A DNA stretch of 27,077 bases from IMG/VR virus record IMGVR_UViG_3300021075_000206, positions 1-27,077 of that record; one strand, 5' to 3'. The DNA is from a virus. The position numbers and the translations under genes were made by a program. A model generated the notes under the pieces. The model did not search any database and had not been told where the DNA came from. It saw nothing but the letters and a program-made list of their open reading frames with translations. Shown in pieces: positions 1,295-25,650 of this stretch (its first letter is position 1; every line of letters begins with the position of its first letter).

Positions 1295-3796
1295 ATGGAT
1301 GCAAAGCAATATGATTGGGTAGGTTTCTACAAGGAGTTTTCTCATCTTTTGTTAGCTTATAAAAACAATAGGAAGGCACTCATTGATAAGGTCAAGAGAA
1401 TCTATAGCAATACTGGTATTAATCTGCCGACGTTGGAGAAAGATAATAAGATCGTTGACATAGACCCGTTTACGGTGTTTGGGCTGTTCAACAAAAGCTC
1501 CATGAAAGAAACAAACCGTCTGAAAATCATCTCGGAAGTAGCAGTAGAGTTTGGAGTTCGAATAGCTATCCCTACGTCTTTTGACAGTATTCCTGTGTTA
1601 AATAATCAAAATGCCACTTTTTACTATTTCGCAGAAGATCGTGCAGAGCACGATATTGAAGACTTGTGGGACCTGTTTGAAGCCGCTTTGAAGTATGCTG
1701 ATAATCCTTCGGCAGAAAACCGGAAAGTTCTCTCGAAGTATTTTGACCTCGCCATCAATAAAAAAGGCAATGGTAATAGTAAAATCACGATGGGGCTTTA
1801 TTGGATAGCTCCTAATTCTTTCCTCAATCTGGACCAACGTAACACTTGGTATATATACGAATCAATGAAAATTCCGGCAGAAGTCGTCGCATCTTTGCCG
1901 GATATTGAACCCAAAATAAAGGCCAAGAAGTATTTTGACACAGTTGAAAAGCTTCGCAGTTACCTTAGCAGCAGCGTGAGTAGTTTAAAGGACTTCAAAG
2001 AGCTGTCATTTGAAGCCTGGAGATATTCGGTGGAAGTGAATCAGGAAAAGAAAACCGAAAAAATAAGAGCCTCAAATGCGGCGTTTTTGAAGTGGTTTAA
2101 ACCTTTAGTTCAGGCGTTACGTGATCTTGATGGATCAGCAACACCCCAAGATACCCGCGATAAAATCATCGAAAATGAACAACTTGCAGAGGAAGTGACA
2201 CGCGAAACCAGAGGGAAAAACAATTTAAATAGGTTTGAAAACGAGGTGTCGTTTGCACGCAATTATCTTGTTTACGGAGGTTATATAGATAATGCAACAT
2301 ATGGAATATGGAAGTTGACTGAAGAAGGTTGGAAAGTCGATATGACAGAAAGTCTCGCATCTGAAATATTCAAGAAAGGTGTTAAGGCCACTCGTGATGA
2401 TAAAGGAGCTGGCCTTGCTGACGAAGACGTAGACACTGTTCATTATTGGATCTATTCGCCGGGCGACGGTGCTATTAAGTGGGAAGACTTTTATCGGCAA
2501 AACATAATGGGAATCGGTTGGAGCGAGATTGGTGATTTAACGCAATATGCCAGCAAAGATGATATGAAGACTGCCATGAAAGAGATATATGACCCATCGC
2601 GGCCTTATAAAAATGCAGCACATGCCACGTGGCAGTTCGTACATGATCTGAAGCCAGGCGACATAGTCTTTGTAAAGAAAGGCATGCATCAGCTTGTTGG
2701 TCGAGGTGTAGTATCATCGGACTATTTTTTTGATTCAACCATTGATATAGAGTATGCCAATCTGCGAAAGATGAACTGGACTGATAATTGTTTAGAACAG
2801 CCAAAGGACCATCCGGGGCAGGCTGTAATGAAAACCTTGACGGATATTACTCCGTATACAGATTACGTTGAGAAATTATGCGCCTTATTTGATAAAGATG
2901 AAGATACCGATGACGACGAGATACCCGAGGTTTCATATCCACTTTATGACACAGAAAAGTTTCTTGATGAAGTGTATATGGATGAGGACAGTTATAATAC
3001 TCTTGTTGGACTTGTTAGGACGAAGAAAAATGTTATTCTTCAGGGCGCTCCAGGTGTTGGTAAAACATATGCTGCCAAGCGTTTAGCATACTCTATGATG
3101 GGGGTTAAAAATCAGGAACGTGTGATGATGATCCAGTTTCACCAAAGTTACAGTTACGAAGATTTTATTGAAGGGTTTCGTCCTTCTGCTGTCGGAGATG
3201 GATTTGAAATTAAGAAGGGCTCCTTCTATAACTTTTGCAAGAAAGCAGCCGATGACCTTGAGCATGAATACTTCTTTATTATTGATGAGATTAACAGAGG
3301 AAACCTGAGTAAAATATTTGGGGAACTTCTTATGCTTATTGAGAACGATAAACGCGGAAATGCGCTGCAACTTCTGTATTCTGATGAGAAGTTCTCAGTA
3401 CCGAAGAATTTATTTATTATTGGCATGATGAACACAGCAGATAGAAGTTTAGCCATGCTTGACTACGCACTTCGCAGGCGTTTTGCTTTCTATGAAATGC
3501 GACCAGGATTTGAATCTGATGGTTTCAGAGAATACCGCATGGGTTTGAAGAGTGAGAAATTCGATAATCTCATCGATTGTGTTGAAAATCTGAACGGAAT
3601 CATTATAGCTGATGAATCTCTCGGTGAGGGGTTCTGCATAGGGCACAGCTACTTCTGTGAACTGGATGAAATTACACCTTCTGTGCTTTCAAATATAGTT
3701 GAGTATGAGCTTATCCCGCTATTAAAGGAGTACTGGTTTGACGAACCACTGAAAACCAAAGACTGGACAAACTATTTAAGGAGTGCTATTAAGTGA
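1295..3796 (+). CDS. mcrB: McrB-type GTPase subunit of modification-dependent restriction
   Basis: This 833-residue protein is the predicted motor and DNA-recognition subunit of a McrBC system, which cuts DNA carrying modified cytosines after GTP-driven translocation. The C-terminal half is an AAA+ domain of the McrB clade. It has a Walker A motif GAPGVGKT at about 584-591, a Walker B with the McrB signature FFIIDEINRGN at about 659-669, and a sensor-type NTADRSLAMLDYALRRRF stretch at about 712-729. The N-terminal half is much longer than in E. coli McrB. At about 381-475 it carries an EVE/PUA-like domain (MGIGWSEIGDL, then LKPGDIVFVKKG and GRGVV), a likely modified-base reader. The ATG is 8-12 bases after a GGGGGATG site. 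The stop overlaps the mcrC GTG start (GTGA), so the two are translationally coupled. The gene appears intact. Confidence 0.88.
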   Translation: MDAKQYDWVGFYKEFSHLLLAYKNNRKALIDKVKRIYSNTGINLPTLEKDNKIVDIDPFTVFGLFNKSSMKETNRLKIISEVAVEFGVRIAIPTSFDSIPVLNNQNATFYYFAEDRAEHDIEDLWDLFEAALKYADNPSAENRKVLSKYFDLAINKKGNGNSKITMGLYWIAPNSFLNLDQRNTWYIYESMKIPAEVVASLPDIEPKIKAKKYFDTVEKLRSYLSSSVSSLKDFKELSFEAWRYSVEVNQEKKTEKIRASNAAFLKWFKPLVQALRDLDGSATPQDTRDKIIENEQLAEEVTRETRGKNNLNRFENEVSFARNYLVYGGYIDNATYGIWKLTEEGWKVDMTESLASEIFKKGVKATRDDKGAGLADEDVDTVHYWIYSPGDGAIKWEDFYRQNIMGIGWSEIGDLTQYASKDDMKTAMKEIYDPSRPYKNAAHATWQFVHDLKPGDIVFVKKGMHQLVGRGVVSSDYFFDSTIDIEYANLRKMNWTDNCLEQPKDHPGQAVMKTLTDITPYTDYVEKLCALFDKDEDTDDDEIPEVSYPLYDTEKFLDEVYMDEDSYNTLVGLVRTKKNVILQGAPGVGKTYAAKRLAYSMMGVKNQERVMMIQFHQSYSYEDFIEGFRPSAVGDGFEIKKGSFYNFCKKAADDLEHEYFFIIDEINRGNLSKIFGELLMLIENDKRGNALQLLYSDEKFSVPKNLFIIGMMNTADRSLAMLDYALRRRFAFYEMRPGFESDGFREYRMGLKSEKFDNLIDCVENLNGIIIADESLGEGFCIGHSYFCELDEITPSVLSNIVEYELIPLLKEYWFDEPLKTKDWTNYLRSAIK

Positions 3797-4833
3797 TACC
3801 AGTACAGAATGTTTATTATATGCTGGCATATGCTTTCAAAGTATTGAATGAGCAAGCATATAATAATATATCCACAGAACAATTTAAAAACGTTGCGGAG
3901 CTATGCGCAGCCATTCTGACAAAAGGTATTTCTGTTCAACTCAAGAGAGGACTCGGGCGGGAATACATATCGGAAACGGATGTTTTATCTGCAATTCGAG
4001 GAAAGATCGATATTTCTGAATCTATGAAATCTCTGACGATGTTAAAAAAACAGTTGATTTGCGAGTATGATGATTTTTCAGTGAATTCCTATATGAATCA
4101 GGTTATCAAGACTACTGTTAAACTTTTGCTGCGTTCGGATATTTCAAAAACACGAAAAAAGGAACTGCATAAACTGTTCGCATTCTTTGGCGAAGTTGAA
4201 TTGCTGGATGTTTATAACATAAACTGGAGCTTTCAGTACAACCGTAACAATCAAACTTACCGGATGCTAATTTCAATCTGTTACTTGATCGTGAAGGGAT
4301 TGCTTCAGACTAATTCTGATGGAACAAAAAAGCTGATGGAGTTTATTGATGAACAGCGTATGTCCCGACTCTATGAGAAATTTATTCTTGAATATTTCAG
4401 GAGAGAACATCCAAAGATATTAGCTAATGCATCTCAGATTCCATGGCAGTTAGATGATGATATGAATCATATGCTTCCAGTTATGCAAACCGATATCACG
4501 CTTACGAAAGATGAGAAGACGCTGATAATCGATGCAAAGTATTATTCTAATACGATGCAGACTCAGTACGATGTGCATACACTGCATTCCGGAAATCTGT
4601 ATCAGATATTTACTTATGTGAAGAACAAAGAAAGTCAGCTAAGAAGTCAGCCGCATGAGGTATCCGGCATGTTGCTCTATGCTAGAACCGATGAAGTTGC
4701 TCTGCCAAATAACACATATATGATGAGTGGCAATAGGATAAGCGTTCAGACACTGGATTTAGATTGTAATTTTGAGGAGATTGCGGCACAACTTGATGCT
4801 ATAGCATTCCGATATTTTGGATCCAGCGCCTGA
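3793..4833 (+). CDS. mcrC: McrC nuclease subunit
   Basis: This 346-residue protein is the expected partner of the upstream McrB. McrC carries the PD-(D/E)XK nuclease and stimulates the McrB GTPase. The N-terminus IPVQNVYYMLAYAFKVL is typical of the family. The nuclease core is visible at about residues 233-251: MQTDITL, then LIIDAKYY (the D...DAK pair), followed by a Q-rich helix, YQIFTYVKNKE, that fits the third catalytic element. The GTG start overlaps the mcrB stop. The length is normal for McrC. No further gene follows in the same operon, because an AT-rich gap of about 290 bases comes next. I am confident of the family. The exact modified substrate is not readable from sequence. Confidence 0.87.
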   Translation: MIPVQNVYYMLAYAFKVLNEQAYNNISTEQFKNVAELCAAILTKGISVQLKRGLGREYISETDVLSAIRGKIDISESMKSLTMLKKQLICEYDDFSVNSYMNQVIKTTVKLLLRSDISKTRKKELHKLFAFFGEVELLDVYNINWSFQYNRNNQTYRMLISICYLIVKGLLQTNSDGTKKLMEFIDEQRMSRLYEKFILEYFRREHPKILANASQIPWQLDDDMNHMLPVMQTDITLTKDEKTLIIDAKYYSNTMQTQYDVHTLHSGNLYQIFTYVKNKESQLRSQPHEVSGMLLYARTDEVALPNNTYMMSGNRISVQTLDLDCNFEEIAAQLDAIAFRYFGSSA

Positions 4834-6679: not shown

Positions 6680-7072
6680 ATGAAAATTAAGTATGAGTAT
6701 TCAAAGAACGAAGTAGTCGAAATTGAAGTGGATGAGGGCTTGGGAGCAGTCATCCTGGAGCTGGATAGGCAAGAATATAACGTTAATCAAAAAGAAACGC
6801 GCCGCCATGTACTTTTTAGTGCTTTACCGTATGAGGGTGAACTTTTAGCTAGTGACTTTAATCTTGAAGCGCAGTTCATCATATCATTTGAGAACGAAAA
6901 ATTAATCAATTGCATTAGTCAGCTGTTGCCAAAGCAGCAGGAACTCCTGAAAAAAGTCTATTTTGATGGCATTTCTGCTTCTGAAATTGCTCGGCAGGAA
7001 GGAGTTAATAAATCGTCAGTTCACAAACGACTGCAGCGGATAATTGAACAATTAAAAAAATCTTTAACATAG
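6680..7072 (+). CDS. Sigma-70 region 4-like DNA-binding regulator
   Basis: This 130-residue protein has a C-terminal domain (about residues 75-128) resembling sigma-70 region 4: LINCISQLLPKQQELLKKVYFDGISASEIARQEGVNKSSVHKRLQRIIEQLKK, read here as motif segments. The helix-turn-helix is at about 98-118. There is no region 2, so it cannot act as a full sigma factor. Such proteins are common as phage regulators in Firmicutes. The N-terminal part resembles a small beta-rich domain of unknown role. A GAGAGGAG ribosome binding site precedes the ATG. The unusual dyad-rich leader at 6537-6654 suggests control at the RNA level. It probably regulates the early or replication genes that follow. Confidence 0.7.
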   Translation: MKIKYEYSKNEVVEIEVDEGLGAVILELDRQEYNVNQKETRRHVLFSALPYEGELLASDFNLEAQFIISFENEKLINCISQLLPKQQELLKKVYFDGISASEIARQEGVNKSSVHKRLQRIIEQLKKSLT

Positions 7073-15620: not shown

Positions 15621-15852
15621 AATTGAATGCGCTTTCAGAACTAAAGACTATGGATGCAAAAAATTAACTGTTACGTATTGCATGGGTGCTGCTTGCCCTT
15701 TTGCACAGACCACAGTAAAGACAAGAGTTTCATTTAAAAAAGCGAGCGTAATATTAGTGAGTCTGGGTAAAGATGAACAACAGTATATTGCGGATAAGTA
15801 TTTCTTTGGTAAGATGCCTTGGCAAAAAGGTGGTGCTTCAAATGACCGCTAA
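15613..15852 (+). CDS. Cysteine-containing phage protein, unknown function
   Basis: This 79-residue protein starts at the ATG at 15613, chosen because GGAGGG lies eight bases upstream. An upstream in-frame ATG at 15571 lacks a site. Four cysteines in the first 28 residues (C6, C15, C23, C28; KDYGCKK and CMGAACPF) suggest a small metal-binding module. The C-terminal half is basic and aromatic. It overlaps the nuclease gene before it and the regulator gene after it, a compact early-operon arrangement. No family is recognised. Confidence 0.6.
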   Translation: MNKIECAFRTKDYGCKKLTVTYCMGAACPFAQTTVKTRVSFKKASVILVSLGKDEQQYIADKYFFGKMPWQKGGASNDR

Positions 15853-16243
15853 AGAATACTTGGGACTAGCATATCGCATTGATCAGCGAATCAATAGCAA
15901 GCTTGAGCAAATTACGTCGCTTCGAGAATTGGCACTTAAAGCAACATCAACCCTGACAGACATGCCGCATAGTCCAACCAAGAATACTAGTAAAATGGCA
16001 AATATTATTTGCAAGATGGTCGATTTGGAGGATGAAATCAACAAGGACATTGACATGCTGGTAGATCTAAAGTGTGAGATAGTATCGCTTATAAAAAAGA
16101 TTCACAACACAGAATACCAAACGCTGCTTGAACTGAGATACCTCTGCTTTAAGACATGGGAGCAGATTGCGGTTGACATGGGTTATAGCTCCCAGCATAT
16201 TTTCCGATTACATGATAAGGCTCTGAAAGTTGTGAAAATTTAA
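15842..16243 (+). CDS. DUF1492 / ArpU-type late transcription regulator
   Basis: This 133-residue protein has a long helical N-terminal part and a C-terminal sigma-region-4-like helix-turn-helix at about 92-130 (LELRYLCFKTWEQIAVDMGYSSQHIFRLHDKAL). This is the DUF1492/ArpU/RinA group, which in Gram-positive phages sits last in the early region and activates the packaging and head operon. The ATG at 15842 has AAGGTGG upstream and overlaps the previous gene; a longer in-frame start at 15773 lacks a site. Two copies of a putative activator-dependent promoter follow (16243 and 17105), which fits the expected role. Family call good; activator function inferred. Confidence 0.8.
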   Translation: MTAKEYLGLAYRIDQRINSKLEQITSLRELALKATSTLTDMPHSPTKNTSKMANIICKMVDLEDEINKDIDMLVDLKCEIVSLIKKIHNTEYQTLLELRYLCFKTWEQIAVDMGYSSQHIFRLHDKALKVVKI

Positions 16244-16296
16244 AAAGATGAGAGTAAATGTGATAGAAGGAGAGTTACATCTTATGTTTTAATTAG
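16243..16296 (+). promoter_or_regulatory. Putative late promoter, copy 1
   Basis: This 54-base block, starting within the regulator stop codon region, matches 17105-17158 without gaps at 48 of 54 positions. The first 35 bases differ at only one. A TTTAATTAG element near 16288 could be a -10 box. No -35 consensus lies 17 bases before it, as expected for an activator-dependent promoter. The DUF1492 protein is the likely activator. Confidence 0.5.
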
Positions 16297-16314
16297 ACTG
16301 AAGAAAGCATAGAA

Positions 16315-16348
16315 AGCCTTTGCGGGAAATAACCCGTAGGGGCTTTTT
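16315..16348 (+). terminator. Rho-independent terminator
   Basis: Bases 16315-16326 pair with 16333-16344 over 12 bp (including three G-T pairs) around a six-base loop, followed by a T5 run. It separates the putative late promoter copy 1 from the cargo gene at 16419. Confidence 0.8.
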
Positions 16349-16357
16349 GATAAAAAA

Positions 16358-16385
16358 TTGAGATATTTTGAAGTTGAGCTATAAA
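16358..16385 (+). promoter_or_regulatory. Probable promoter of the cargo gene
   Basis: TTGAGA (16358-16363) and TATAAA (16380-16385) are 16 bases apart. They lie after a terminator and 33 bases before the cargo gene start. An overlapping alternative is TTGAAG (16368) with TATTCT (16391). A private promoter and terminator are typical of a phage moron. Confidence 0.55.
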
Positions 16386-16418
16386 CATGGTATTCTTATT
16401 TTGTTGGGAGGATGTAAA

Positions 16419-17093
16419 ATGGATTATATGGATAAGGATGAAATGTTCGAATTTGAAAAATATATTTGTTCTGAAAAACCTATTACTTGGATAAGTACAG
16501 CAATGGGTCTTTTTTATTCAGCAGAAGTTTTGTACGAATTTGAATCTAAGAAATCGGCAGATATTTTTGAAAAAACTGGTGAATTACAAACTCTGTTCTC
16601 AAATGAAATTGTTAAGTATAATCATTTTAATTTTAGAGTTCAACGTATGCTTTGGGCATATGGGTTTGAAAACATTTTCAAGGTATTGATTATTGATTTG
16701 GAAAAGCAACATCATGAAAATAGTACGGAATTATATAAAATTATTAAATCGCATAGTTTTAACTATCTAGTACCAAAGGCAAATGTTACTCTTACCGATG
16801 ATGAAACGTTTTATCTAAACATCTTAGAAAAATGCGCTGTTTGGGCGGGAAGATATCCTTTGCCAATCAAAGCGAACCAAATGTATCAACAACGAGCCGG
16901 AATGAGTTCCCACGAAGAGCTAAACGAGCGTGCTAAAAAAACAAGGGAGGACTTTGTAGCAGGCAAGATCCCAAGAATAGAAACGGAGTCAGATATCTTT
17001 CATTCGGGGATTGGAGACAAAGAAATAAAAATATACAAGGATCTGAAGACACGTTTAATTCAGTTGTTAAGGGAAAAAACATTATTAGAATGA
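16419..17093 (+). CDS. Unrecognised cargo (moron) protein between duplicated late promoters
   Basis: This 224-residue soluble protein has no signal peptide or membrane segment. The ATG at 16419 has GGGAGG seven bases upstream and is preferred over an upstream TTG. The sequence is mainly helical, with aromatic-rich segments (KPITWISTAMGLFYSAEVLY, HFNFRVQRMLWAYGFENIF) and a KCAVWAGRYPLPIK segment near 139-152. WAGRYP-like runs occur in some helical bundle proteins of the HEPN/Abi type, but I cannot show a catalytic R-x4-6-H motif, so that is only a hint. The gene is more AT-rich than its neighbours, has its own promoter, and is bracketed by near-identical copies of the regulatory region. All this suggests an inserted accessory gene, perhaps for superinfection defence. 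Function unknown. Confidence 0.7.
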   Translation: MDYMDKDEMFEFEKYICSEKPITWISTAMGLFYSAEVLYEFESKKSADIFEKTGELQTLFSNEIVKYNHFNFRVQRMLWAYGFENIFKVLIIDLEKQHHENSTELYKIIKSHSFNYLVPKANVTLTDDETFYLNILEKCAVWAGRYPLPIKANQMYQQRAGMSSHEELNERAKKTREDFVAGKIPRIETESDIFHSGIGDKEIKIYKDLKTRLIQLLREKTLLE

Positions 17094-17104
17094 AGTTGGT
17101 TTTG

Positions 17105-17158
17105 AAAAGATGAGAGTAAATGTGATAGAAAGAGAGTTAGCTGTTGTGATTTAATTAG
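17105..17158 (+). promoter_or_regulatory. Putative late promoter, copy 2
   Basis: This second copy of the block at 16243-16296 has the TTTAATTAG element at the same offset (45 bases). It stands directly upstream of a hairpin and the HNH/terminase genes, its expected native place. It probably drives the packaging and head operon under control of the DUF1492 protein. Confidence 0.5.
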
Positions 17159-17173
17159 TATGGACAAAGATAG

Positions 17174-17207
17174 AAAGCCTTCACAGGTAAAACCTGTGAG
17201 GGCTTTT
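17174..17207 (+). terminator. Terminator-like hairpin before the HNH gene
   Basis: Bases 17176-17188 pair with 17192-17204 over 13 bp around an AAA loop, followed by TTTT. It lies between putative late promoter copy 2 and the HNH ribosome binding site, so it may act as an attenuator rather than a full stop. It is related to the hairpin at 16315. Confidence 0.7.
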
Positions 17208-17231: not shown

Positions 17232-17594
17232 ATGCCAAGAAAACCAAAGCGTCCGTGTTCCTACAGGGGTTGTCCTAACCTTACTGACAACTACTACTGT
17301 GATGAGCACAAGAAACTGATGGACGCACAGTACGACAAATACGAGCGCTCGCCTGAGCATGGCAAACGCTACGGTAGGGCGTGGAAGCGAATCAGAGACA
17401 GACACATCAAAGAACATCCGCTTTGCGAGCAGTGCAAAGAGCAAGGAAAGATGGTGCCAGCAAATGAAGTGCATCACATATTACCTCTTTCAAAGGGAGG
17501 CACCCATGCAAGTGAGAACTTGATGAGTCTTTGCACCAGTTGCCATAGCAGTATCACTGCTCGAGATGGTGACCGATGGTCAAAAAAATTGTAA
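17232..17594 (+). CDS. HNH endonuclease of the packaging module
   Basis: This 120-residue protein begins at the ATG with AGGTGGAG upstream; an earlier in-frame ATG at 17160 would run through the terminator hairpin and is unlikely. It has an N-terminal zinc ribbon-like part (CSYRGC, YYCDEHK) and a C-terminal HNH fold: CEQC, then NEVHHILPLSKGG, then NLMSLCTSCH. The HH pair near residue 81 is the catalytic core. HNH proteins located just before terS are known to be needed for cos cleavage and packaging in many HK97-like phages (a published link between HNH proteins and terminases). The cos-like segment follows immediately, which supports this role. Confidence 0.88.
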   Translation: MPRKPKRPCSYRGCPNLTDNYYCDEHKKLMDAQYDKYERSPEHGKRYGRAWKRIRDRHIKEHPLCEQCKEQGKMVPANEVHHILPLSKGGTHASENLMSLCTSCHSSITARDGDRWSKKL

Positions 17595-17762: not shown

Positions 17763-18311
17763 ATGGCAGGAAATCAGAATAGTGGTGGCAGAAGAGTGAA
17801 CTCTGGACGAAAGAAGAAGCCACTTTCAGAAAAAATATTAGAAGGTAATCCCGGCAAAAGAAAGCTTAAAGTTATGGAATTCATGGATGCTCCAGAGCTT
17901 GAAGGTGTAACAATGCCCGCGCCAAGAGAATATCTCGCAGCTATACAAAAAGACGGCAAGGGAATATTGGCTGTTGATATTTATGAGAAGACATGGAAAT
18001 GGCTTAGTGAGCGGGGTTGTGCTCATTTGGTTTTGCCACAGTTGATTGAGCAGTACGCAATGAGCGTATCAAGATGGATTCAATGTGAAGAGTGCGTTAC
18101 TGAATTTGGGTTTTTGGCAAAGCACCCCACAACAGGCAATGCAATTCAGTCGCCGTATTTGAGTGCAAGCCATAACTTTAACAAACAAGCAAATTACATA
18201 TGGACTCAGATTTATCAAGTGGTCAGAGAGAACTGCGCGTCTGATTATAAAAGCGGCACACCGCACGATGACATGATGGAGCACTTGCTAACTGCAAGAC
18301 GCGGAACATAA
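17763..18311 (+). CDS. terS: Terminase small subunit, P27 family
   Basis: This 182-residue protein starts at an ATG behind GGGGAGATG. It has the glycine-arginine-rich basic N-terminus typical of P27 small terminases (GNQNSGGRRVNSGRKKK), then LSEKILEGNPGKRKLK, a central helical region (IYEKTWKWLSERGCAHL, LIEQYAMSVSRWIQCEE), and a C-terminal NFNKQANYIWTQIYQVV segment. It binds the cos/pac region and delivers DNA to the large subunit. Neighbours are HNH upstream and, after an accessory block of about 4.3 kb, terL. The insertion of accessory genes between terS and terL is notable. Family sure. Confidence 0.87.
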   Translation: MAGNQNSGGRRVNSGRKKKPLSEKILEGNPGKRKLKVMEFMDAPELEGVTMPAPREYLAAIQKDGKGILAVDIYEKTWKWLSERGCAHLVLPQLIEQYAMSVSRWIQCEECVTEFGFLAKHPTTGNAIQSPYLSASHNFNKQANYIWTQIYQVVRENCASDYKSGTPHDDMMEHLLTARRGT

Positions 18312-22646: not shown

Positions 22647-24254
22647 GTGGCAATTATCCGAAAACTTAAAAAATACAATCAGACAGAGTTTGCTGCAATT
22701 GATTCAGTTTACAACAAAGGCTTTGCGGATAGTGCCGTCAACTTTATAAATTGCCTTAACCACACCAAAGGCGAATGGTTCGGACAGCCTTTTGACTTAA
22801 TCGACTGGCAAGAGCAAATCATACGCGATGTCTTTGGAACGATAAAACCTAATGGTTTTAGGCAATTCAATACTGCCTATGTAGAGATCCCGAAAAAACA
22901 AGGCAAGTCGGAGCTCGCTGCTGCAGTTGCGTTATTGCTAACATGTGGTGACCACGAATATGGTGCAGAGGTTTATGGCTGCGCATCTGATCGACAGCAG
23001 GCTTCCATTGTATTTGATGTGGCGGTCCAAATGGTTGAGCAATGCCCAAACCTAAAAAAAAGAATTAAGCCGATACTATCTCAAAAAAGACTTATTTATA
23101 AACCGCTCAACAGTTTTTATCAGGTTTTATCTGCCGAAGCTTATACCAAACACGGACTCAATGTTCATGGTGTAGTGTTTGACGAACTTCATAGCCAGCC
23201 TAACAGAAATTTATTTGATGTCATGACGCATGGTTCAGGCGATGCCAGAAAGCAACCGCTGTATTTCTTAATCACTACCGCCGGAACTGATCGGCATTCG
23301 ATATGTTGGGAGGTTCATCAAAAGGCAGAAGATATTCTTAAAGGCAGAAAGAATGATCCTACATTTTATCCAGTTATTTATGGCGCTGCTGATGAAGCAG
23401 ACTGGATGGATGAGAAGATTTGGAGGCAAGTGAATCCATCGGTCGGAATAACGGTCGACATTGAAAAAATCAGAACTGCATGTGAGAATGCCAGACAAAA
23501 CCCAGCCGAAGAAAACTTGTTTCGTCAACTTAGATTGAATCAGTGGGTGAAACAGTCAGTTCGATGGATGCCAATGGAGAAGTGGGATAAATGTGATTTT
23601 CCTGTGTTCCCAGAAAATCTACTTGGAAGAGAGTGTTACGGTGGGCTTGACCTTTCAAGCACGACAGACATTACAGCATTTGTGTTAGTGTTTCCGCCGG
23701 AAGATGCAGACGATAAATACACGATACTTCCTTACTTTTGGATCCCAGAGGACAACATTTTACAGAGAGTCAGGAGAGATCATGCGCCGTATGATGTGTG
23801 GGAAAAGCAAGGACATCTAAAAACAACAGAGGGGAATGTGGTCCACTATGGATTCATTGAAAGTTTCATTGAGGATCTTGGCACGAAGTACAATATTCGA
23901 GAAATTGCTTTTGACCGTTGGGGCGCGATTCAAATGGTTCAAAATCTCGAGGGGTTAGGGTTTACGGTTGTTCCTTTTGGTCAAGGGTTCAAGGATATGT
24001 CACCACCGACAAAGGAACTGATGAAGTTGACACTAGAAGAGAAAATCGCCCACGCAGGACAGCCTGTTCTTCGTTGGATGATGGACAACATTTTTGTAAG
24101 GACTGATCCTGCAGGGAACATCAAGCCGGACAAAGAAAAAAGCACTGAGAAGATTGACGGTGCGGTTGCAACAATAATGGCGCTTGATAGATCATTAAGA
24201 CATCAGGATGACGCGGGTTCGGTTTACAATGAAAGGGGAATCATTATTCTATGA
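22647..24254 (+). CDS. terL: Terminase large subunit
   Basis: This 535-residue protein is the packaging motor and nuclease. The ATPase domain has VEIPKKQGKSELAAAVALLL (Walker A-like, about 77-96), YGCASDRQQASIVFDVA and Walker B VVFDELHS (about 176-183). The nuclease domain has GLDLSSTTDITAFVL (about 333-347), EIAFDRWGA and a final DGAVATIMALDRSL. Full-length homologues begin close to RKLKKYN. In this gene no ATG exists there. The strong AAAGGAGGTGG site at 22640-22650 is followed in frame by GTG (22647, inside the site), ATT (22653) and ATC (22656), so initiation may be non-canonical. I mark GTG as a conservative start. A TTG at 22623 is inside the terminator T-run and unlikely. Confidence 0.93.
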   Translation: MAIIRKLKKYNQTEFAAIDSVYNKGFADSAVNFINCLNHTKGEWFGQPFDLIDWQEQIIRDVFGTIKPNGFRQFNTAYVEIPKKQGKSELAAAVALLLTCGDHEYGAEVYGCASDRQQASIVFDVAVQMVEQCPNLKKRIKPILSQKRLIYKPLNSFYQVLSAEAYTKHGLNVHGVVFDELHSQPNRNLFDVMTHGSGDARKQPLYFLITTAGTDRHSICWEVHQKAEDILKGRKNDPTFYPVIYGAADEADWMDEKIWRQVNPSVGITVDIEKIRTACENARQNPAEENLFRQLRLNQWVKQSVRWMPMEKWDKCDFPVFPENLLGRECYGGLDLSSTTDITAFVLVFPPEDADDKYTILPYFWIPEDNILQRVRRDHAPYDVWEKQGHLKTTEGNVVHYGFIESFIEDLGTKYNIREIAFDRWGAIQMVQNLEGLGFTVVPFGQGFKDMSPPTKELMKLTLEEKIAHAGQPVLRWMMDNIFVRTDPAGNIKPDKEKSTEKIDGAVATIMALDRSLRHQDDAGSVYNERGIIIL

Positions 24255-24339
24255 AATTCTACATTTAAGTGTTGTTAAAACAAACTCGAGTTGCTTGATG
24301 ATGTTTCTTGCATTTGTTATTGTTTCTTTGGTGATGAAA

Positions 24340-24594
24340 ATGGAATTATCTAAAGAAGAAGCGGTTGAAATGCTTATAAAGTGGATGGGAAACAAATATT
24401 TTTTTGAGTATGCTTATCAAAAAAGCAACGAATTCAGAATTTATTTTGGTTCGTTAACTGATTTTGAAAAGCACAAGATTAGAAAGAGTCACAATGGAGA
24501 GTCGGCACAGTACTCAAATGTTTTACAGATTCAAGAGGTGGTGGAATCACCATTGTTTGACGTGATATTTAAAAAAATTAATAAAAATATTTAA
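24340..24594 (+). CDS. Small accessory protein after terL, unknown function
   Basis: This is 84 residues if started at the ATG at 24340 (weak GGTGATGA upstream). Earlier in-frame ATGs at 24298/24301 would add a hydrophobic MMFLAFVIVSLVMK segment, possibly a membrane or signal helix, but no ribosome binding site is visible there. The body is helical and charged (MELSKEEAVEMLIKWMGNKY, then FFEYAYQKSNEFRIYFGSL). No family is recognised. It is AT-rich, as are the next two genes, and lies between terL and portal where no gene is normally needed. It is probably cargo. Confidence 0.5.
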   Translation: MELSKEEAVEMLIKWMGNKYFFEYAYQKSNEFRIYFGSLTDFEKHKIRKSHNGESAQYSNVLQIQEVVESPLFDVIFKKINKNI

Positions 24595-24606
24595 TGCCTC
24601 GGCGTG

Positions 24607-24626
24607 CATAACGAATCATAACGAAT
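24607..24626 (+). repeat. Perfect tandem 10-bp repeat upstream of the cargo promoter
   Basis: CATAACGAAT occurs twice in direct succession (24607-24616 and 24617-24626), ending seven bases before the -35 box at 24633. Its ATAACGA core resembles the GTAACG half-sites downstream of the promoter, so it may bind the same regulator. Confidence 0.55.
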
Positions 24627-24632
24627 AGCATG

Positions 24633-24661
24633 TTGACAAACATAAAATAAAGCAGTATAAT
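24633..24661 (+). promoter_or_regulatory. Consensus promoter of the EVE-like cassette
   Basis: TTGACA (24633-24638) and TATAAT (24656-24661) are separated by exactly 17 bases, a perfect sigma-A promoter within the phage late region. It drives the 24722 gene independently of the late operon, so this cassette can be expressed in the lysogen. Confidence 0.88.
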
Positions 24662-24670
24662 CTTTTTGTA

Positions 24671-24698
24671 GCGTAACAAGTGTAACGAAGCGTTACGC
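24671..24698 (+). promoter_or_regulatory. Palindromic operator candidate
   Basis: GTAACG (24682-24687) and CGTTAC (24691-24696) form a perfect dyad with a three-base spacer, and a wider pair GCGTAAC (24671-24677) / GTTACGC (24692-24698) overlaps it. The site lies at about +3 to +30 of the consensus promoter, where bound protein would block elongation or start. No cognate regulator is obvious in the cassette. Confidence 0.6.
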
Positions 24699-24721
24699 AA
24701 AATACAAAAGGAGGAATAGTA

Positions 24722-25348
24722 ATGAATGTTTTTCAGATTAAAACAAAACCACACAACATTGAAAGAGGACGTCAATTTATTGAAGAAAATTTTATTTGCA
24801 TCGGATGGCCTGGTATAGGAAGTCTTGATCATCTTTCTAAAGATGAGATTCGAGGACTTCTTGAAAAAAAATATCGATACACTGGTCACAGTCTAGGAAA
24901 CAATCTTGGCCAGGTAAATAGTTTTGTTAATACTATGAAAATTGGAGATGTCGTAATTATTACTGAGAAGAGTTGGGCGCACATTGGCATTGTTGGTAAT
25001 TATGAATACTATCCTCAATACGATAGTGACAAAGATGGAATGTGCCACAAGCGAAGTGTGAATTGGATTAGCAGAGTATTAATAGTCGAATTAAATAGTA
25101 GCATTCAGAAATTATTAAGCAACAGAAACACAATTTGTCTGTATCCAGAAACGTTTGAAGATTCTGGATTAGAAAAATATTTGTTTAATAATGTAACTGA
25201 AGGTCACAAACAAAAAAACAAATTTGAAGAAATGTATGAAACTGCTTTAAAAATTATCGAATCTGAATTGACTTCATCAGATATTGATAGAAGATTCAAT
25301 GCAGCTGTAGAAATTCTTCGTTTGAAGAATATCAGTAATTTTAATTGA
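24722..25348 (+). CDS. EVE/PUA-like domain protein, candidate defence or modified-base reader
   Basis: This 208-residue protein starts at an ATG with an AAAGGAGG site. Residues 3-110 resemble the EVE-like domain: MNVFQIKTKPHN, FICIGWPGIGSLDHLSKDEI, then VNSFVNTMKIGDVVIITEK and HIGIVGNYEYY. The same pattern occurs in the N-terminal half of the McrB in this window (MGIGWSEIGDLTQYASKDDM, LKPGDIVFVKKG). EVE-type domains bind modified bases, and in defence genes they read modified DNA. The C-terminal part is helical (EEMYETALKIIESELTSSD) without a recognised nuclease. It shares a promoter with the next gene. Role is inferred: a defence or anti-defence protein. It could also be a truncated restriction subunit. 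Confidence 0.65.
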   Translation: MNVFQIKTKPHNIERGRQFIEENFICIGWPGIGSLDHLSKDEIRGLLEKKYRYTGHSLGNNLGQVNSFVNTMKIGDVVIITEKSWAHIGIVGNYEYYPQYDSDKDGMCHKRSVNWISRVLIVELNSSIQKLLSNRNTICLYPETFEDSGLEKYLFNNVTEGHKQKNKFEEMYETALKIIESELTSSDIDRRFNAAVEILRLKNISNFN

Positions 25349-25362
25349 AAGGGGTTTTATCA

Positions 25363-25650
25363 ATGACTAAAGAGCAAGAAATTATGGATTATTTACACGA
25401 AAAAGTCTTTGATCCCGTTTTAGACTCCAAGATAGCATCTTCTAATTTGAAAAGTGGTATTAACTTAACCATTATGAGAATGAATAAGCTGCGTGCTGAA
25501 AAGATGGTACAATACTTTTGGTCAGCAGTTATAGGAACAGAAAGAAGTATTGGATTTGCAAAGTCGATGAAAGATGAGGGCTTTGTTAGATTCGAGGAAA
25601 CAATAGAAGAGTTTAGAGTTAAATTCAATGATGCTTGGCTTATAAAATAA
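25363..25650 (+). CDS. Small helical partner of the EVE-like protein
   Basis: This 95-residue protein starts at the ATG at 25363 (AAAGGGG upstream) and follows the EVE-like gene after 14 bases, so the two form an operon. The sequence is compact and mostly helical: EQEIMDYLHEKVFDPVLDS, then GINLTIMRMNKLRAEKMVQY, YFWSAVIGTERSIGFAKSM, and FEETIEEFRVKF. No family is recognised. Its conservation-like pattern (well-formed amphipathic helices, complete stop and terminator) suggests a real gene that works with the EVE-like protein. It is followed by a terminator. Confidence 0.65.
   Translation: MTKEQEIMDYLHEKVFDPVLDSKIASSNLKSGINLTIMRMNKLRAEKMVQYFWSAVIGTERSIGFAKSMKDEGFVRFEETIEEFRVKFNDAWLIK

Follow-up and report, generated by a model that had tools for sequence, protein, structure and literature searches.

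A phage of a clostridial-type bacterium carries, ahead of its packaging genes, two copies of a 54-base block with one gene between them. We propose, with a probability of roughly 85%, that each block is a phage late promoter and that a promoter–hairpin unit has been doubled, with the intervening cargo gene as an insulated insert and copy 2 driving the late genes. The window, that is, the whole stretch of DNA analysed, is the complete IMG/VR record IMGVR_UViG_3300021075_000206 (27,077 bases), and it was compared with 161 related loci from viral contigs and bacterial genomes, which comprise 117 distinct promoter stretches. These comparisons establish, at the level of sequence, the predicted operator's identity, its pairing with the DUF1492 protein, the recurrence of the duplication and a hotspot at the junction. 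The features of the region are as follows.

15842..16243, + strand: DUF1492 late regulator, 133 aa, start ATG at 15842 (PF07374, phrog_36)
16250..16279, + strand: predicted copy 1 operator, three direct 10-bp repeats GAGAGTAAAT / GTGATAGAAG / GAGAGTTACA
16285..16293, + strand: copy 1 extended −10, TG-T-TTTAAT, as read from the sequence
16310..16349, + strand: copy 1 leader hairpin with U-tract, terminator-like (−24.7 kcal/mol, z −5.4)
16368..16396, + strand: weak candidate promoter for the cargo gene, TTGAAG-17-TATTCT, with a TG preceding the −10, as read from the sequence
16419..17093, + strand: cargo gene, 224 aa, predicted all-helical, with a ‘WAGRYP’ motif
17112..17141, + strand: predicted copy 2 operator, repeats GAGAGTAAAT / GTGATAGAAA / GAGAGTTAGC
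17147..17155, + strand: copy 2 extended −10, TG-A-TTTAAT, as read from the sequence
17173..17207, + strand: copy 2 leader hairpin with U-tract (−25.8 kcal/mol, z −6.7)
17232..17594, + strand: HNH endonuclease, which opens the late (packaging) module (PF01844, E = 1.5e-13; phrog_144)
17763..18311, + strand: terminase small subunit (PF05119; phrog_83)

The doubled block described in the original prediction is real: positions 16243–16296 and 17105–17158 align without gaps and are identical at 48 of 54 positions, with mismatches at offsets 26, 35, 36, 38, 41 and 44 and thus, as had been stated, a single mismatch among the first 35 bases. The element TTTAATTAG lies at offset 45 of either copy (16288 and 17150), a hairpin stands behind each, and one AT-rich open reading frame (32.9% GC, compared with 40.1% for the window) occupies the space between, all as predicted. 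When extended, the pair covers 69 nt at 84% identity. A 31-nt core, allowing up to 3 mismatches, occurs in the window at these two sites only and in none of 100 shuffles; a duplication by chance is not expected. The exact core had no match in viral contigs, and a looser 25-mer replaced it for that search.

The regulator and its predicted promoter

Regulators of this late type are found in prophages throughout the Clostridia and in other groups, and annotation usually omits their promoters. The DUF1492 protein of the window matches Pfam PF07374 (E = 4e-7), Sigma70_r4 weakly, and phrog_36, a family of transcriptional regulators. We place its start at 15842, a region 5′ of which contains a stop in relatives; the recognition helix, S-S-Q-H-I-F-R, is numbered here as residues 139–145 on the longer open reading frame from 15773. 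In the AlphaFold model (pLDDT 93) the last helices span residues 106–113 and 117–130, and in Foldseek the C-terminal ~50 residues superpose on sigma region 4 of SigF (8jzt; r.m.s.d. 1.5 Å, 33% identity), a search in which no match reaches an E value of 0.001. The protein is accordingly modelled as a two-helix coiled part followed by a C-terminal helix–turn–helix resembling sigma region 4. A second small sigma-region-4 protein (PF08281, phrog_11138) is encoded in the early region of the window, at 6680–7072.

The first repeat begins 6 nt past the DUF1492 stop codon in the window, and placement is similar in relatives. Over both copies the repeats read GAGAGTAAAT, GTGATAGAAG/A and GAGAGTTA.., and the extended −10 (TG-n-TTTAAT) comes 18 nt after the third repeat begins, compared with 18–19 nt in relatives. 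Nearly all relatives have three 10-bp repeats and an extended −10, and in nearly all of the 161 loci the arrangement of repeats, −10 and hairpin lies directly 3′ of the DUF1492 stop codon. The repeats occupy the place expected for a −35 element, so that the regulator probably supplies the contact normally made at −35, as judged from spacing. The packaging genes, HNH and TerS, lie downstream of copy 2.

Co-variation of the recognition helix with the repeats

Among 85 regulators less than 90% identical to one another, the six DUF1492 columns that carry the most mutual information on repeat class all fall within residues 139–145, the recognition helix. All 147 repeats paired with arginine at residue 141 have C at repeat position 3, 62 of the 69 paired with glutamine have G there, and residue 142 tracks repeat bases 1 and 2. 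By these comparisons the co-variation is not accounted for by relatedness, because distant proteins with the same residues share repeats and close proteins with different residues do not: pairs less than 60% identical outside the helix have a repeat identity of 0.83 if they share residues 141–142 (n = 225) and 0.54 if they differ (n = 1,881), and for pairs at least 70% identical the identity is 0.55 when these residues differ, compared with 0.90. Loci L062 and L125 provide an example: their regulators are 92% identical apart from the helix, and their repeats are GAGAG and CGCAC. In a sign test on the well-supported branches of a tree from which the helix had been left out, changes for the three traits ran in the predicted direction at approximately 3:0, 2:0 and 5:0; with so few supported independent pairs, no trait reached P < 0.05 alone in this phylogenetically controlled test. 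The DUF1492 tree is poorly supported because the protein is short.

We consider it likely that DUF1492 proteins read their repeats through residues 141 and 142, and that this specificity acts as a lock on module exchange at the early/late boundary, where cargo also accumulates. In the code that we suggest, arginine at residue 141 would specify C at base 3 of every 10-bp repeat and glutamine G, and residue 142 would set bases 1–2 (Y, GA; H, GT or GA; N, TA, TT or TC; W, GC; R, CG; S, AA). A regulator that switches class in nature would carry every operator copy along, and promoters of replaced regulators would persist as out-of-class fossils; operators that switch with the regulator while such fossils stay behind are what would make promoter specificity a compatibility lock on module exchange.

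Sixteen named GenBank phages, none of which was used in drawing up the code table, served as a hold-out set. Those of known residue class had the expected repeats or close variants (for example, MQH with GAGAG, MHH with GATAC, IDN with xACAG and RRW with GCCAC), with one deviating repeat in the LRY phage L175. Two phages with new residues (GKW and TAN) had new repeats, and in the most distant ones short direct repeats persist with a different sequence. Among the named relatives (L169–L180), many are filed as Ca. Heliusvirales gut phages, near which the window may belong.

We also searched 2.9 million viral contigs for the exact repeat patterns, with no protein as reference. The GAGAG class returned 31 stretches, and all 30 with upstream sequence have a DUF1492 gene at 0–24 nt, each with the residue pair QH. 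The GACAC class gave RY in 11 of 11 cases, some of the proteins being only 37% identical, and the GTCAC class RH in 4 of 4; the TAGAG class was less clean, with 4 QN, 1 QY and 1 without a cognate regulator. Once contigs already used were removed, 30 of 30 new loci (21 GAGAG, 6 GACAC and 3 GTCAC) had the predicted residue pair. At L229, a TAGAG-class block stands directly behind an HNH gene, and upstream of it are XRE, ImmA/IrrE-like and PIN-like genes; its cognate DUF1492 gene was not found within reach.

Helix–repeat co-variation, the hold-out phages and the reverse search all argue, indirectly, that the regulator recognizes the repeats. The proposal that the block is a late promoter under DUF1492 control thus gains strong support from three sides, one of them blind to the protein. 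Given the co-variation, the reverse search and the class switch of both copies in relatives (see below), the block is very probably a DUF1492 operator and promoter, as predicted from these comparisons. That it might instead be a packaging (cos) or recombination site, and no promoter, is a suggestion that draws on its position just ahead of the HNH and terminase genes, on the repeats and inverted repeat that it contains and on the adjoining cargo. We reject the packaging-site reading because the block co-varies with the DUF1492 helix; the spacing to the extended −10 is also fixed, most loci have neither cargo nor a second copy, and we regard such a site as very improbable.

Hairpins behind the predicted promoters

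The window hairpins have stems of 15–17 bp that start about 17–19 nt past the −10. A terminator scanner skipped them because of its strict U-run rule, and hairpins were called by a folding and thermodynamic test in place of the simple scan. In the set of 105 distinct loci used for hairpin and leader comparisons, 89 have a terminator-like hairpin within 110 nt of the −10, compared with 8 of 210 shuffles and 9 of 105 random segments; in these 89 the hairpin starts at a median of 22 nt past the −10. Irrespective of a U-tract, hairpins occur in 98 of the 105 loci (24 in shuffles). Hairpins resembling bidirectional terminators also lie just past the DUF1492 stop in L126, L132 and L144, ahead of convergent cargo genes, and L132 and L144 have a nearly identical one (AAAGAGGCACATAC...GTATGTGCCTCTTT).

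Simple read-through does not readily account for so strong a hairpin immediately behind a late promoter. Most simply, it would halt read-through early on, and enough of the late polymerases would still pass. A gate in the style of lambda Q, in which only a polymerase modified at the promoter with DUF1492 bound would carry late transcripts past the hairpin, would add to the best explanation, and the terminator-like hairpin behind the −10 in the 89 loci fits it. However, the hairpin is absent in L119 and after block 1 in L007, L012, L026 and L027, U-tracts are degenerate in other loci, and a hairpin could merely block early read-through; we think such a gate improbable.

In the doubled-promoter reading that we prefer, each block would act as a late promoter activated on induction, and the cargo would be an autonomous, insulated insert between two promoter–hairpin units. 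Hairpin 1 would stop transcription arriving from upstream and from late promoter 1, the cargo may be driven by a weak promoter of its own, hairpin 2 would end the cargo transcript, and copy 2 would drive the HNH, terminase and further late genes. The promoter-like site of the cargo matches 8 of 12 consensus positions, which is under the scanner threshold, and strong hairpins lie on both sides of the gene.

Multiple blocks and the origin of the second copy

Across the loci compared, block duplication is recurrent. The two blocks of the window lie 862 nt apart with the 224-aa gene between, and both fit its QH regulator. Doubled or tripled blocks also occur in L007/L089/L090 and in L026 and L027/L102 (269 nt, with a small Cys-rich gene); the blocks flank HNH in the L028 group, and L144 has two after an IS-type insertion. 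Gene-free block pairs in relatives, which the original prediction named as a finding that would speak against it, do occur: double or triple blocks that enclose no gene are found in L017 (118 nt), L042 (156 nt), the L063 group (159 nt), L107 (134 nt), L118 (119 nt) and L087 (three blocks).

L042 and L063 have flanks that are 91% and 94% identical and different helices (NVRH and TIDN). Either promoter copy of L042 reads GTCAG/GTCAC/GTCAC and either copy of L063 reads TACAG/TCTAC/TCTAC, with 0–1 of 27 differences within a phage and 9 and 10 of 27 between phages. Because both copies follow the regulator, both are probably in use; gene conversion between copies could contribute to this joint switching. 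Two relatives have a downstream block that does not fit their regulator. L012 has an RY regulator, for which GACAC is expected; its block 1 is GACAG/GACAT/GACAC and its block 2, GAGAG/GTGAT/GAGAG, is of the wrong class. L007/L089/L090 have a QH regulator, with GAGAG in blocks 1 and 2 and the wrong-class GACAC in block 3. The wrong-class downstream blocks are best read as left behind when a new regulator–promoter module arrived.

The second copy in the window would have arisen either by local duplication or by the arrival of a new regulator–promoter module beside the old promoter, which stayed where it was. Outside the repeats, the two leaders of the window resemble each other no more closely than the best unrelated leader does (rank 2 of 105), a similarity near the level of unrelated leaders that is compatible with either route for the pair. 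A tandem duplication of the promoter–hairpin unit, through selection for dosage or through slippage, with cargo entering between the copies later, has precedents in the gene-free tandems and in L032, where an exact promoter copy including the hairpin lies 387 nt away, scores 72/78 in the leader comparison and clearly reads as a recent local copy. For the window this route is tentative, as the near-background similarity of the non-repeat parts would mean that the copies are old and that the operator alone has been preserved. Recent local duplication, taken as the proven origin of the window pair, was rejected: leader similarity gives it no support.

The exchange route, which we likewise hold as possible without favouring it, would have a new early module (DUF1492 with its own promoter, with or without cargo) recombining just upstream, so that the resident late promoter becomes copy 2; the copies would then match only if the old and new regulators share their specificity. 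The wrong-class blocks of L012 and L007/L089/L090 speak for such exchange, as do the window leaders, which are no closer than the best unrelated ones; the local copy in L032, and the fact that most duplicated loci have both copies cognate, speak against it. Recombination between the copies may, as the original prediction suggested, allow the gene to be lost; we found no near-identical phage pair with and without the cargo gene of the window.

Relation to known late regulators

RinA/Ltr late regulators of Gram-positive phages, encoded last in the early module and with repeats that overlap the end of their own gene (Quiles-Puchalt 2013, via PMC13123087), control packaging, structural and lysis genes. 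As regulators of this type are already described, the promoter system of the window can be counted as a variation on a known type. Here too the small regulator gene closes the early module, immediately ahead of the promoter; unlike the four imperfect or 18-bp repeats given in PMC13123087, the window has three 10-bp repeats, its regulator is of the DUF1492, sigma-region-4-like kind and its promoter is doubled around cargo. The Ltr/P23 system of the Staphylococcus aureus phage Phi13 resembles it in having direct repeats, a TATA box and late genes that start with an endonuclease and terS. The P23 repeats overlap the end of ltr, at −107 to −42, and the passages of PMC13123087 consulted describe neither a duplicate promoter nor a hairpin for P23, unlike the window. 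TP901-1 Alt, likened here by layout, is an activator on imperfect direct repeats upstream of a late start, with four repeats at −76 to −32 compared with three in the window (as cited in PMC13123087).

In the literature searched, the coverage of which was limited, we came across no description of a code by which DUF1492 proteins recognize their repeats, no case in which all copies switch class and no mention of this junction as a cargo hotspot. If the code is true, a late promoter and its specificity could be read directly from a genome sequence, orphan or mismatched promoters would reveal past module exchange, and orthogonal regulator–promoter pairs would become available for laboratory use.

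A cargo hotspot at the DUF1492–HNH junction

The junction is short (70–236 nt) in 93 distinct loci and expanded in about 19, several of which hold unrelated cargo, in keeping with the prediction of a gene inserted at a variable site. A gene is thus present in some phages and absent at the same place in relatives, the pattern of a moron, and the comparative evidence makes the DUF1492–HNH junction a cargo hotspot. The expectation that loci without the gene carry a single block also held, as no second block was found in 92 of the 93 short junctions, with L118 as the exception. That the cargo and a second regulatory region arrived together, by contrast, does not follow from the comparison: gene-free doubles exist, and L121, L126, L132 and L160 have cargo beside a single block. 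Duplication also occurs with no gene between, so that acquisition of a moron plus promoter is only one route, and among these loci duplication and cargo occur both jointly and separately. Of the original interpretation, then, the DUF1492-controlled promoter and the gene inserted at a variable site are supported, and the joint acquisition is one possibility.

Cargo at the junction includes Abi_2, BrnT/BrnA, NUDIX and antisense genes, the last in L126, L132, L216 and L221; L126 and L132 have common flanks and different cargo. The BrnT/BrnA toxin–antitoxin pair of L121 lies at about +70 to +760 past the DUF1492 stop and is flanked by two GTTCCAATGCGGAGCGTCCTTT-like copies of the leader hairpin, with one promoter. 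As with the morons and defence hotspots of P2 and P4 (PMC9122126), variable and partly defence-like cargo occupies a fixed place between conserved genes; unlike those, the place is the junction of late regulator and HNH/terS in other phages, and duplicated late promoters or hairpins flank several of the inserts. The duplicated promoter marks a hotspot of toxin–antitoxin, abortive-infection and unknown genes, a place in which to seek new defence genes.

The cargo of the window is atypical in composition, but modestly so, and the GC3 of the DUF1492 gene is equally low. The protein had no match in PADLOC, Pfam, NCBIfam or PHROG and fell into no known defence family there, and its single-sequence AF2 model was unusable (pLDDT 39). 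Relatives of the gene were not found in viral, phage or genome collections, with three weak, fragmentary matches among 398 genomes. One distant relative, 23% identical and sharing ENLxK and WAGRYP, is on a Bradyrhizobium plasmid, adjoined by genes for a restriction endonuclease and a DNA methyltransferase. Motifs resembling WAGRYP presumably occur in HEPN-like proteins, which we take as a lead.

Several other genes at or near such sites were observed. A small Cys-rich gene (MSYKEALxDGIRI..., 68–92 aa, zinc-ribbon-like, of no family) lies between the late regulator and promoter and HNH in L007, L012, L026, L027 and L079, across several repeat classes and often bracketed by blocks. The closely related Clostridium phages L028 and L029 form a natural empty-site pair: one has a gene of 93 aa that separates HNH from the second block, and the other lacks it. 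Elsewhere in the window, positions 1295–4833 encode a McrB-like AAA protein (833 aa, with PADLOC restriction-type matches) followed by a 346-aa protein that is McrC-like by position only, a phage-carried pair that resembles type IV restriction. A second AT-rich cargo stretch (32% GC) lies between TerL and portal at 24208–25650, where the open reading frame 24722–25348 matches the PADLOC candidate PDC-S02 (E = 1e-14).
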